44,360 bases of DNA from a virus. Every line of letters begins with the position of its first letter. Within the stretch, counting starts at the first letter, position 1. The DNA is taken from positions 1 through 44,360 of the IMG/VR virus record IMGVR_UViG_3300045015_000022. One strand, written 5' to 3'. The position numbers and the translations under genes are program-made. The notes beneath the pieces are model-generated. The model ran no database searches, was not told the DNA's origin, and worked only from the letters and a program-made list of their open reading frames with translations. Positions 1 through 7,175 of this stretch are shown here, one piece after another.

Positions 1-308
1 ATGTAGAGCTTCTGGCCGCTGACCATGCGCAACGCGGCCAGCGCCTCCTCGTCGTCGCAGAACACGACGAACGCATGGTCCCAGTGGTCGTCGATCCAGG
101 TGCCGACCACCTGCTTCACCACACCGAAGTCGACCACGCGGCCCAGCTCGTCCAGGTGCGGGCCTGCGATGGTCACGTGTGCGACGTAGTTGTGGCCGTG
201 CAGGTGGCGGCACTTCGACTCGTGGTTGAACACCCTGTGACCACTGCAGAACTGCAACCTGCGGGTCACGGTCACGTTGGGGTCGGTCTTGCGGCGGGGC
301 TTGTTCAT
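1..308 (-). CDS. queD: QueD, 6-carboxy-tetrahydropterin synthase (3' end outside window)
   Basis: I translated this partial gene by hand from the ATG at 308; about 102 residues are visible before the window edge. It shows the QueD signature: a zinc-ligand His in CSGHR (residues 21-25), then C33-R-H-L-H37-G-H39-N-Y, which is the CxxxHGHxY motif with the catalytic Cys that separates QueD from plain pyruvoyl-tetrahydropterin synthases. VDFG and DHAF follow further on. The known reaction converts dihydroneopterin triphosphate to 6-carboxy-tetrahydropterin, the second step of preQ0 synthesis. Its start overlaps the transporter stop by 4 nt (ATGA), so it belongs to the dpdA operon. Later steps (QueE, QueC) may lie beyond the window. 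Confidence 0.88.
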   Translation of the reverse strand, partial: MNKPRRKTDPNVTVTRRLQFCSGHRVFNHESKCRHLHGHNYVAHVTIAGPHLDELGRVVDFGVVKQVVGTWIDDHWDHAFVVFCDDEEALAALRMVSGQKLY

Positions 309-787
309 GGAGCAACCTTGCGGATCAGCAGGAGCGAACACAGGATCGACCCGATCACCTTGATCGCGGTCTGCGATGCCACGACCGACACGTCGAGGGC
401 ACCCCAGGCCACCACCTGGAACACCACCGAGTCGCACAGTGCGCCCGCCGCGTTGCTGGCGTTGACGCGCACCAGCTTGGTGCCGGGCGTGCGTTGGTAG
501 ACCAAGGCGTCAACGGTGCCAGCGACCGCGAACGCCGCGCACGAAGCAACGGCCACAGGCCATGCGGCCGTGTTGACCACCAAGGTCAGCAACGACCCAC
601 CTGCGATCAGTGCGGCCATGCGCGACCACAGGCGCGACCGCCACCGCTCGTGCAGCGCGTCACGCAGCGTCAGGTCGAGCGGGATCATCACCAGGGCCGT
701 CAGCCACAGGATCGAAGGCCCGAACGCAGCGACGCACAGGTTCGCGCACACCGCCGCGCCCAGGTAGCACACCACGAGCCAGCTCAC
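305..787 (-). CDS. yhhQ: YhhQ/VUT-family queuosine-precursor transporter
   Basis: This 160-aa hydrophobic protein has about five or six membrane segments. It carries family hallmarks of the YhhQ (DUF165, VUT) transporters: the LTLRDALHE motif, an AF...D.LVYQ stretch, RVNASNAAGALCDS, and a final SQTAIKV...LLLI helix. Members characterised in bacteria import queuosine precursors such as preQ0/preQ1 across the inner membrane. I chose the GTG at 787, which overlaps the upstream stop as GTGA and has GGGTGG ahead of it; a longer reading from 823 is possible. Placement between a QueD-like gene and QueD supports a role in supplying 7-deazaguanine bases for DpdA. The exact substrate is inferred. Confidence 0.82.
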   Translation of the reverse strand: MSWLVVCYLGAAVCANLCVAAFGPSILWLTALVMIPLDLTLRDALHERWRSRLWSRMAALIAGGSLLTLVVNTAAWPVAVASCAAFAVAGTVDALVYQRTPGTKLVRVNASNAAGALCDSVVFQVVAWGALDVSVVASQTAIKVIGSILCSLLLIRKVAP

Positions 788-1134
788 GGCACCACCCGAG
801 CGCCGAAGCACTGGTCCTCCCACACCTCACACGACACCGGCCGCCAGCCCTTGGTCTGCGCCCAGCCGATCGCGGCCTCGCACCAGTGCTCGCACGACCA
901 GTCGATCGACAGAGGCCACTGCGGTGGTGATGCGGTCGCAGAGATCCATGCGTCCAGGCACTCGCGCACGTCGTGAAACTCGACCGCCCTGTCACTGTGG
1001 TCGACTTCCAGCTCCAGCTTCATGGTGAACGGGTGGCCGTGTGGCTCGCGCAGGTATGCGCGCCGTCCCTCGGCCTCCTTCCACCTGTGCAGGGCGAAGA
1101 ACTGCGTGCACACCAGGATCGACCTCTTGCTCAC
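784..1134 (-). CDS. QueD/PTPS-like protein lacking the catalytic Cys
   Basis: This 116-aa protein resembles the tunnel-fold pterin synthase family. His16 (in ALHRW) and PHGH with His32 and His34 match the three zinc ligands, and HSDR.VEF resembles the conserved strand of the family. The Cys expected four residues before HGH is Leu28, so it is not a canonical QueD. SCEHWCEAAI matches the C-terminal helix with SCE seen in QueD-like paralogues. The GTG at 1134 overlaps the dpdA stop (GTGA) and has an excellent AAGGAGG site 7 nt upstream. It probably acts with the neighbouring 7-deazaguanine genes, but its reaction is unknown. Confidence 0.7.
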   Translation of the reverse strand: MSKRSILVCTQFFALHRWKEAEGRRAYLREPHGHPFTMKLELEVDHSDRAVEFHDVRECLDAWISATASPPQWPLSIDWSCEHWCEAAIGWAQTKGWRPVSCEVWEDQCFGARVVP

Positions 1135-2033
1135 GTGCTTGCCTCCTTGGAACACCGCAGCTCCTCGCGCTCGATCTCGGCCACCAGCGCCTCGATGTCG
1201 ACGTTGGTGACCGCGTTGAACACGCGCACCCCGTAGCGCAGCAGCATGTCCCTGCTGTAGCGCACGAACGAGTTGAGGGTGATCGCGCCCAGCTTGTTCG
1301 CGTTGTTCATGCCGCGCCGCAGGCCTGGGTCGTTGTTCGCGCTGCCGCGCCTGCGTGCTGTTGGGTTGGCCAGCTCGGTCGCATGGAAGCCCATGCGGTT
1401 GATCCAACGCAGCTCGGCAGTGGTGAACGGGATGTCCCTGGTGGTGCCGAGGCTGCTGTGCTCGGTCCACGTCCTGCAGTCGCCGTGGTAGACGGCCAAG
1501 CGGCCGTAGCGGTAGCCAGACACCACGTTCGACGAGTCGCACGAGTAGGGCCGCAGGGCACGCACCATCGAGCCGTTGGTGTAGCCGAGCCAGTGAACGC
1601 GCCGACCCTTCGCCCACCTGTGCTTTGCGATCACGTAGCTCTTGCTGCTGTGGGTGCTGTGCGGTCGCCGCAGACCACCGAGCGCCACCCAATCGGACAG
1701 TCCGAACAGCTCGTCCATGCGCGCCTCGTTGTCACCCCACACGTGCACCGGAACAGGCCGCAGACCGCGTGCGATCATCTCGCGCAGGTTGCGCTCGGTG
1801 ACCACGGGGTCGCCAACCCGGTCGAGGGCGATGTAGCCGTGCAGGTGCTGCTTCCACTTGTCGAGCCAAGCGCAGTACTCGTCGAGCGTGATCTCGTGGC
1901 CTGCGTTCAACGCCGAGAAGCCGCCCGAGTCGATCAGCCAGTCGATGTGCGGGCACGCAAAGAGCCGCGCCATGTCCTCGTCACGCATGAGGCGCATGTA
2001 GGCGTAGCTCACCAACACCGGATGGCGTGCCAT
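1131..2033 (-). CDS. dpdA: DpdA-like DNA 7-deazaguanine transglycosylase
   Basis: This 300-aa protein has the TIM-barrel motifs of tRNA-guanine transglycosylases in their DNA-acting (DpdA) form. D35-S-G-G-F-S supplies the general acid/base Asp, YIALDRVGDP (residues 68-76) supplies candidate nucleophile Asp71 or Asp75, and WVALGGL (115-121) matches the substrate-pocket glycines. In characterised systems DpdA swaps guanine in DNA for preQ0 or a relative, protecting phage DNA from restriction. The neighbours (QueD, QueD-like, YhhQ) are all 7-deazaguanine genes, which strongly supports this reading over a tRNA-modifying enzyme. ATG at 2033 follows the ParB-gene stop by 4 nt; its ribosome site is weak, suggesting coupling. 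Confidence 0.82.
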   Translation of the reverse strand: MARHPVLVSYAYMRLMRDEDMARLFACPHIDWLIDSGGFSALNAGHEITLDEYCAWLDKWKQHLHGYIALDRVGDPVVTERNLREMIARGLRPVPVHVWGDNEARMDELFGLSDWVALGGLRRPHSTHSSKSYVIAKHRWAKGRRVHWLGYTNGSMVRALRPYSCDSSNVVSGYRYGRLAVYHGDCRTWTEHSSLGTTRDIPFTTAELRWINRMGFHATELANPTARRRGSANNDPGLRRGMNNANKLGAITLNSFVRYSRDMLLRYGVRVFNAVTNVDIEALVAEIEREELRCSKEAST

Positions 2034-2037
2034 GGTC

Positions 2038-2658
2038 TCAGTGCAGGATCACTTTGTAGGGCAACGCGGCTGCGTCGAGCGCGGCCTGCAGCACGTCGGC
2101 CACGCGCTGGCCGTCCTCTTGTGCGATGCCCACCACCTTGATCGACCGCGTGTCGGTCTTCGGGTCGTAGGCGGGCACGCTGTCGACATCGAGTTCTTGG
2201 GCCTCCTCGGTGCCACCTGGAGCGAACAGGTTGTCGAGGTCCTGCTGCGACCACCCGATCAGTGCAGCGTCGGCGCTGGCGAGTTCGCGCAGGTTGTCGG
2301 TGAGCTGTTCCCAGTCCCAGGTCGCAAGCTCGGCCGTGCGATTGTCGGCCAGTGCGAACGCCATCGCCTTGGCCTTGTCGTCGTCGACGAAGTGAACCGG
2401 AGCGTGCGACCACCCGAGCAGCTTGGCCGCCTCGACCCGTCCGTGACCGGCGATGATCTGCTTGGTGTCCTTGTGGGCCACCACGACACCGCGCCACCCG
2501 AACGCACGAAGCGAGGCCACCACGGCCTCGATGTTGCGCTCGCCGTGTTGGCGAGCGTTGGCCGGGTCAGGTTGCAGCTCGGCGACTGGGAATGACAGGT
2601 GACGCAGCGATTCGGGGATCGGGTCGTCGCTGCTCTGCTTCGGCTTGGGCTTGGCCAT
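2038..2658 (-). CDS. ParB/Srx-domain protein
   Basis: This 206-aa protein carries a ParB-like nuclease fold: ELQPDPANARQHGERNIE near the N-terminus, IIAGHGRVEAAKLLG (the GxxR box), and DNRTAELATWDW. Phage proteins of this type often sit next to DNA-modification enzymes. Here it lies 4 nt upstream of dpdA and no methyltransferase is adjacent. In bacterial dpd clusters the partner DpdB carries a ParB/DndB-like domain, so a supporting role in base exchange is an attractive inference. The ATG at 2658 overlaps the preceding gene by 92 nt and has only a weak ribosome site, so the start is uncertain. Confidence 0.75.
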   Translation of the reverse strand: MAKPKPKQSSDDPIPESLRHLSFPVAELQPDPANARQHGERNIEAVVASLRAFGWRGVVVAHKDTKQIIAGHGRVEAAKLLGWSHAPVHFVDDDKAKAMAFALADNRTAELATWDWEQLTDNLRELASADAALIGWSQQDLDNLFAPGGTEEAQELDVDSVPAYDPKTDTRSIKVVGIAQEDGQRVADVLQAALDAAALPYKVILH

Positions 2659-6101: not shown

Positions 6102-7175
6102 TCACAGGGTCGAAGCGATCAGGTCGAACGCCTTGCGGCGCTTGCGCGCCCCCTCACCGAACCAGCTCGATGCCATGCGGCGGTCCTGGCCGCCGCTGAC
6201 CTTGTGGTCCAGGTAGTCCGTGACCGCGTTGAACGCTCCCCAGGCGGTCTCACCAGCGAGGTCAGCGCCGGGGCCGTTGTGGAACGAGTCGACGATCACC
6301 TTCTCGACGCGCCCCGTGTTGTTGAGCAGCTTCTCCAGGTCGGCGATCGCCGCACGGGTCTGCTCGCGGATCGAGACGTCGGCCTGTTCCTCGCGCACCC
6401 GGAACTTGGCGATCAGGTCCTTGGCCTTGATGTAGTCCGCATCGAACAGCTCCTTGGCGAGCCGCCGCACGTAGTCTTCGGTCACAGGGAGACCGGCCAT
6501 CTTGCGATAGGCGTCGACCGTCACCTTGAGTTCGCGGTTCATGGCCACGATCGCACGACGCGCCGCCTCGGCCTTGGCGCGCACGTCGCCCTTGTGGCTG
6601 ATGGCGAAGCCCTTGGCCGCGATCGCGTCATCACCCTCGGCGTCGCCGTCCTCGACGGCACCTGCCGCCTGCATCGTGTTGCAGCACACCACCCGCGTGG
6701 GCGTGTTGATGATCCGCAGGCTCATCTTGCCGTCGTGGCCATTGGCCAACAGCAGGTAGGGGATCAGCGCATCGCCGTCCGTGACCTCGATCGCGTCAGC
6801 GTAGCGGGCCTGCACCCACACCTTGCGACCACCCTGCAGCGAGCCAGCCGTCTCGATGCGGCACGTGCCGTCCTTCACCAGCTCACCGAACCACCCGAAG
6901 GCGTCCTTGTTCTGGAACGGGTTGAACTGGTCGGTCACCACCCCGAGCACCGCGTTGTCGCGGTCCCGCAGCAGCGCCTTCCAACCCTTGACCGCCACGG
7001 GGCCGACGCCCTGGGCGGTCATCACGTTGGTGGTGAGTTCGCCCTCGACCACGTTCCAGTCGAGACCCGCCTTCACGATGGCGTCCTCGATGCTGGGGTT
7101 GTCCTGCAGGACCACCGCCAGACCGTGCCACGCCTGCTCCCGAACGACGAAACCACTTTCGAACTCGTGTGCCAT
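6102..7175 (-). CDS. DUF932 phage/plasmid-like protein
   Basis: This 357-aa protein matches the DUF932 (phage/plasmid-like TIGR03299) family: MAHEFESGFVVREQAWHGLA at the N-terminus, VVTDQFNPFQNKDAFGWFGELV, GRKVWVQARYAD, LLLANGHDGKMSLRI and TRVVCCNTM, followed by a long helical C-terminal half and a terminal RRMASSWFGEGARKRRKAF. Family function is not established; members are often encoded near replication or recombination genes. The start ATG at 7175 has GGAG 8 nt upstream. A 93-bp gap with a small palindrome precedes it, so it may have its own promoter. Confidence 0.85.
   Translation of the reverse strand: MAHEFESGFVVREQAWHGLAVVLQDNPSIEDAIVKAGLDWNVVEGELTTNVMTAQGVGPVAVKGWKALLRDRDNAVLGVVTDQFNPFQNKDAFGWFGELVKDGTCRIETAGSLQGGRKVWVQARYADAIEVTDGDALIPYLLLANGHDGKMSLRIINTPTRVVCCNTMQAAGAVEDGDAEGDDAIAAKGFAISHKGDVRAKAEAARRAIVAMNRELKVTVDAYRKMAGLPVTEDYVRRLAKELFDADYIKAKDLIAKFRVREEQADVSIREQTRAAIADLEKLLNNTGRVEKVIVDSFHNGPGADLAGETAWGAFNAVTDYLDHKVSGGQDRRMASSWFGEGARKRRKAFDLIASTL

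Follow-up and report, generated by a model that had tools for sequence, protein, structure and literature searches.

The operons most similar to the locus studied here are the preQ0 operons of actinophages (Mycobacterium phages Rosebush and Quesadilla and Arthrobacter phage Sonali), which have the gene order ParB-DpdA-QueC-QueD-QueE-FolE, and the DNA of Rosebush carries dPreQ0 (PMC6884629). Phages encoding DpdA, phages encoding YhhQ and an operon without QueC, the ParB-DpdA-x-QueD-QueE-FolE operon of Mycobacterium phage Bipper, are also already known (PMC6884629), and YhhQ of E. coli imports preQ0 and preQ1 (PMC11130926; PMC6884629).

Further relatives are found among isolated phages. Cellulophaga phage phiST, Acidovorax phage ACP17 and Xanthomonas phage X1 encode the same QueD-like family as our locus (termed QueDL below), along with FolE, QueD and QueE and without a full QueC; unlike our locus they lack YhhQ and have other DpdA types, and X1 and ACP17 additionally possess a GT4-like glycosyltransferase, which in X1 is a match to PF00534. 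In Faecalibacterium phage Roos the same four families as in our locus adjoin one another as ParB-QueDL-DpdA-YhhQ, all annotated 'hypothetical protein', but FolE, QueD and QueC were not found in its complete genome, and the cassette looks like a salvage-only version.

Here we analyse a linear viral contig of 44,360 bases, which is the whole of an IMG/VR record and is referred to as the window. Its operon shares order and logic with the actinophage preQ0 operons, together with a related DpdA and a ParB-like first gene, but has QueDL and YhhQ at the place where those operons have QueC. With moderate confidence, we propose that it replaces guanine in the phage DNA post-replicatively by a 7-deazaguanine made without QueC. 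The following appear to be new: in operons of this type QueDL together with YhhQ systematically replaces QueC, QueC and QueDL strictly exclude each other, and QueDL is tied to a glycosyltransferase.

Results and discussion

An operon of five genes at the end of the contig

The contig has 52 predicted genes, all of them encoded on the minus strand; no exact terminal repeat was found in it, and terminase, portal, major head and tape-measure proteins indicate a tailed phage. A DUF932 protein is encoded at 6102-7175 (PF06067, 146.6 bits). The operon consists of the last genes of the strand, in this order:

2038..2658, minus strand: ParB-like gene, first in the operon, 206 aa with a GHGR motif (phrog_620 ParB-like, E 6.5e-36)
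1131..2033, minus strand: DpdA, 300 aa (phrog_887, E 3.9e-28), with putative catalytic D35 (DSGGF) and D166 (SCDSS), and D71 in ALDRVGD
784..1134, minus strand: QueDL, QueD-like paralogue, 116 aa, GTG start (phrog_17812, E 3.6e-6)
305..787, minus strand: predicted YhhQ/QPTR-family transporter, 160 aa, hydrophobic, GTG start (PF02592; phrog_4899, E 3.5e-29)
3..308, minus strand, cut by the contig end: QueD (6-carboxytetrahydropterin synthase), 102 codons from the start (PF01242 with 71.1 bits, cut-off 22.4)

Neighbouring genes share exactly 4 nt at DpdA/QueDL, QueDL/YhhQ and YhhQ/QueD, as an earlier sequence-only reading had described for these four genes. To them the ParB-like gene must be added: it ends 4 nt before the start of dpdA and is part of the same operon unit, and among 78 related loci there are 67 in which such a gene sits next to DpdA. 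GC3 lies at 0.84-0.94 throughout the operon genes, and chance ORFs are ruled out by the family matches and synteny. The contig ends at position 1, where queD is incomplete, and the record holds no sequence further on. In bacterial dpd islands DpdB is the DNA-side partner of DpdA, and by analogy the ParB-like protein may be such a partner here.

DpdA

The identity of the 300-aa protein as a DpdA is well supported by sequence and model comparisons. It matched queuine tRNA-ribosyltransferase families of PHROG (E 4e-28 for phrog_887, and 6e-20); a TGT match was absent in Pfam and in NCBIfam. An AlphaFold model built from 52 sequences reached a pLDDT of 89, and its viral fold neighbours are annotated as queuine tRNA-ribosyltransferase, among them R9TGF0 of Vibrio phage nt-1, the phage in which DpdA2 was first defined. 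The sole PDB match of the family profile was the DNA-guanine transglycosylase 7UI4 (E 0.0035), the alignment covering both catalytic stretches; a PDB fold search with the model returned generic TIM barrels only, and the fold placement therefore comes from the viral structure library and the profile search. D35, D71 and D166 are invariant in the 52 sequences, and D35 and D166 align with the corresponding stretches of 7UI4. H147 is likewise invariant in this alignment; the criterion that separates the subfamilies DpdA1 and DpdA2 is the conserved His196 of 9g DpdA.

The protein thus combines sequence and fold homology to the DpdA/TGT superfamily with its two catalytic aspartates. The motifs recognised in the sequence-only reading (DSGGFS from residue 35, ALDRVGDP from residue 69) are in place, and both the structure prediction that it had proposed as a check and the homology search that it had named as a possible refutation put the protein inside the superfamily. 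The family match, the fold, the catalytic aspartates and 7UI4 together support its prediction of a DpdA-type guanine exchange in the phage's own DNA. Several related operons (L183, L185, L187, L189-L192) contain at least two DpdA genes or gene pieces.

QueD, YhhQ and the paralogue QueDL

Besides its match to the PTPS model, the QueD of the window has the predicted catalytic cysteine, zinc histidines and Asp-His pair of a QueD (C33, H37, H39 and D77-H78), the first three in the motif CRHLHGH that had already been noticed. Its score against the NCBIfam equivalog is 67.8 against a cut-off of 89.25, the C-terminal part of the protein lying beyond the contig. The YhhQ protein, which shows hydrophobic segments, scores 39.4 bits against PF02592, above the cut-off of 27.2, and 20.1 bits against TIGR00697, the NCBIfam equivalog for the transporter proper, below 50.95. 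Its earlier assignment consequently holds for the wider PF02592 family, to which E. coli YhhQ (QPTR) also belongs, and not for the equivalog; the window protein is the shorter of the two and is a predicted transporter.

QueDL remains under the cut-off of PF01242 (16.7 bits against 22.4). Its model (pLDDT 92) nevertheless matches the fold of E. coli QueD with probability 1.00 and a TM of 0.78, and hhalign relates it to QueD at 95-98%. Alignments of 13 and of 60 sequences show the zinc triad H16/H32/H34 kept at the zinc positions of QueD, and in neither was a counterpart of the QueD catalytic cysteine or Asp-His found. In the 60 sequences R49, E52, S80-C81-E82 and E106 are invariant too, and all are present in the window protein; a glutamate of QueDL aligns with that of V-x-E-T in QueD. 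The QueD-like label of the sequence-only reading is borne out by the fold, but without the PTPS score, the cysteine and the Asp-His pair the protein is not a second QueD. Nor is it a decayed one, a possibility ruled out by 14 invariant residues common to 60 diverse relatives. QueDL falls within phrog_17812, annotated 'unknown function' in PHROG, and its nearest members there are the unannotated phiST CGPG_00067 (E 4e-69) and ACP17 gp125 (E 6e-53). These comparisons point to a QueD paralogue with presumably the same metal site and another active site; since the cysteine is lost while the zinc histidines and the glutamate are kept, QueDL would be expected to carry out another reaction with a related ring as substrate.

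QueDL takes the place of QueC

Related loci were gathered through a DpdA scan, with DpdA alignments as query (a single DpdA protein gave none), and a QueE scan, for which a broad alignment had no conserved stretch and a narrower one was used; near-duplicates were merged, and loci were counted if DpdA, QueE and FolE were present. The common operon in loci from both scans is ParB-DpdA-x-QueD-QueE-FolE, x being QueC in most. The DpdA scan gave 10 loci with QueDL, 43 with QueC, none with both and 5 with neither (P 6e-8, a guide only, as related loci are not independent), and the corresponding numbers in the QueE scan were 5, 36, 0 and 14. Pooled, 144 non-redundant loci, including some chosen for QueDL, comprise 52 with QueDL, 73 with QueC, none with both and 19 with neither. 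QueC and QueDL take the same operon place and are mutually exclusive within one operon.

This pattern extends beyond the operons counted. IMG/VR holds 163 candidate places that encode QueDL relatives. Pfam QueC was found in 0 of 50 QueDL contigs and, in a second run, in 0 of 18 (3 shared with the first run), with all 4 QueC controls recovered; another 50 contigs, mostly of large phages with QueDL, included 2-3 with weak partial QueC matches far from QueDL and no full gene. Twelve isolate phages with QueDL have FolE in 11 cases and a separate PTPS-model match in 11 (10 above cut-off), and QueC is missing from them except for partial matches in D479 and X1. The idea that QueC simply lies off the contig is rejected by these exclusion tests. 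Across the DpdA tree QueDL occurs in several clades, and its label requires 8 changes, of which starred branches force at least 4; the window's own clade (99*) holds 11 QueDL and 2 QueC operons, and Quesadilla, Sonali and L181 have sister QueC operons of the order ParB-DpdA-QueC-QueD-QueE-FolE.

The order DpdA-QueDL-YhhQ-QueD is kept in ten IMG/VR loci (L179, L180, L183-L188, L194 and L050). QueE and FolE follow QueD in nine of them and lie upstream in L187, which leads us to expect both just past position 1 here and, by analogy, a synthesis up to 7-carboxy-7-deazaguanine (CDG) that is probably complete beyond that position. The sequence-only reading had supposed partial synthesis and had proposed looking beyond position 1 for FolE, QueE and QueC; the first two are expected there, and QueC is not. 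Its proposal of a preQ0-type base also needs revision: since QueDL and YhhQ hold the place of QueC, and QueC and QueDL were never found together in one operon, preQ0 and its derivatives are unlikely products of de novo synthesis here.

A proposed pathway without QueC

According to the model that we favour, FolE and QueE, which we infer to lie beyond the contig end, would act with QueD to make CDG, and a CDG-type base would be made, imported or both. QueDL, probably Zn-binding and at the usual position of QueC, would convert CDG. The likeliest step, which rests on context, would be decarboxylation to plain 7-deazaguanine, a reaction in keeping with a QueDL that has lost the cysteine but kept its metal-binding and ring-binding residues. 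DpdA would swap this product for guanine in DNA, possibly partnered by the ParB-like protein, YhhQ would take up a base of the pathway from outside, and the purpose would probably be escape from restriction. Decarboxylation also fits Cui et al. (2023), who reportedly detected both carboxy-deazaguanine and 7-deazaguanine in the DNA of phages and predicted a CDG decarboxylase, DpdL. We take QueDL (phrog_17812) to be probably this DpdL and treat the assumption as a lead only.

The tie between QueDL and a glycosyltransferase

Among 110 loci with QueDL, 51 encode a GT4-like glycosyltransferase close to it; none of 145 loci lacking QueDL does, but these are all of one operon type, so that lineage effects partly remain. 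In the reverse scan, by the GT4-like protein, QueDL was present in 72 of 76 newly fetched loci, among them all 49 of at least 12 kb, and QueC in none. Examples come from large phages and some bacterial islands:

L009:3374-4534, GT4-like glycosyltransferase
L076:5765-6823, GT4-like glycosyltransferase
L256:6814-7998, GT4-like glycosyltransferase
L259:2328-3425, GT4-like glycosyltransferase
L269:8360-9433, GT4-like glycosyltransferase

The gene is absent from the window. QueDL thus belongs to a branch whose product may be glycosylated elsewhere. The tie calls for caution on plain decarboxylation, 7-deazaguanine offering no obvious attachment point for a sugar, and it speaks for an alternative that we still regard as rather unlikely, in which QueDL would convert CDG into another, undescribed base or ready it for conjugation; some phages would then glycosylate the base, and here it would be inserted unglycosylated. 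The invariance of R49, E52 and the SCE motif in the QueDL family agrees with such a chemistry. However, the glycosyltransferase is dispensable, as QueDL occurs without it in all 25 loci with a DpdA of the MA9/phiST type and in the window's clade, and it may act on another base.

YhhQ and the possibility of import

In the DpdA scan YhhQ was present in 9 of 10 QueDL operons, which are close kin, against 0 of 48 others, and the link is concentrated in one clade; of four independent tree pairs, 2-3 agree and none is opposite, too few for significance. YhhQ also adjoins DpdA without QueDL, in phages PEAT2 and AB3P2. Here preQ0 would be possible only by import, which is unlikely. An explanation along these lines, close to that of the sequence-only reading, in which YhhQ brings preQ0 or a derived base from host or medium for DpdA while QueD and QueDL merely supplement it, draws on the known substrates of E. 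coli YhhQ, on PEAT2 and AB3P2, in which YhhQ is all that stands beside DpdA and import may feed it, and on the Roos cassette. We consider it decidedly improbable: with preQ0 imported, there would be no need for QueD, QueE and FolE, yet these three are retained in the relatives that encode YhhQ, where QueC is the only gene missing, and QueDL would be left without a role.

A role in providing host tRNA with queuosine precursors, with no DNA modification, recalls 48 phages with queuosine-pathway genes and no DpdA (PMC6884629) but is very improbable indeed, the core of this operon being DpdA, whose nearest relatives are phage DpdAs and the sole solved DNA-guanine transglycosylase, and preQ0 for tRNA being impossible to make without QueC.

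The favoured pathway from CDG through QueDL to 7-deazaguanine means that, for a group of phage genomes, the predicted base is no longer preQ0 but one made without QueC, and gives a 'hypothetical protein' family a testable role. It suggests that a one-gene swap in an otherwise fixed operon varies the DNA base met by host restriction enzymes. The glycosyltransferase link predicts glycosylated 7-deazaguanines and concerns the already isolated phages X1, ACP17 and PA5oct. More broadly, we offer as a tentative suggestion, possible though doubtful, that QueDL defines a little-recognised branch of phage DNA modification diverting CDG from QueC to another base. In jumbo phages, T4-like phages and certain bacterial islands this base would be glycosylated by a GT4-like enzyme of its own, and in the lineage of the window QueDL would be coupled to a transporter. 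The gene position that separates dpdA from queD would then be an exchangeable tailoring slot, filled by QueC, QueDL with YhhQ, a Bipper-type protein or a SAM methyltransferase, and would set the chemistry of the base.

Other genes in the slot and bacterial operons

Where neither QueC nor QueDL is present, several loci encode a SAM methyltransferase or a Bipper-type protein at the QueC place. The Bipper-type protein is a family of ~135 aa with the motifs HxHT, PSFxxTN and DATNEDVAxRLF (L107, L109:2047-2469, which is Bipper, L114, L116, L132, L153, L166, L168 and L174), for which no Pfam or PHROG matches were found. Bipper thus differs from the window, which has QueDL in this slot; a QueD paralogue was also considered for the Bipper-type gene and rejected, hhalign detecting no similarity to QueD. 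Methyltransferase genes fill the slot in the QueC-less operons L203:1563-2141 and L113:1886-2707, identified by Pfam match, and L207:2085-2699, identified by similarity to L203, which suggests methylated bases.

QueDL operons are also present in bacterial genomes, namely in Pseudonocardia (L257), Amycolatopsis (L260-L261), Methylobacterium (L259) and Aurantimonas (L269). The actinobacterial ones have the order ParB-DpdA-QueDL-QueD-QueE-FolE, and those of Methylobacterium and Aurantimonas encode a TGT-like protein, YhhQ, QueDL and a glycosyltransferase in a row.
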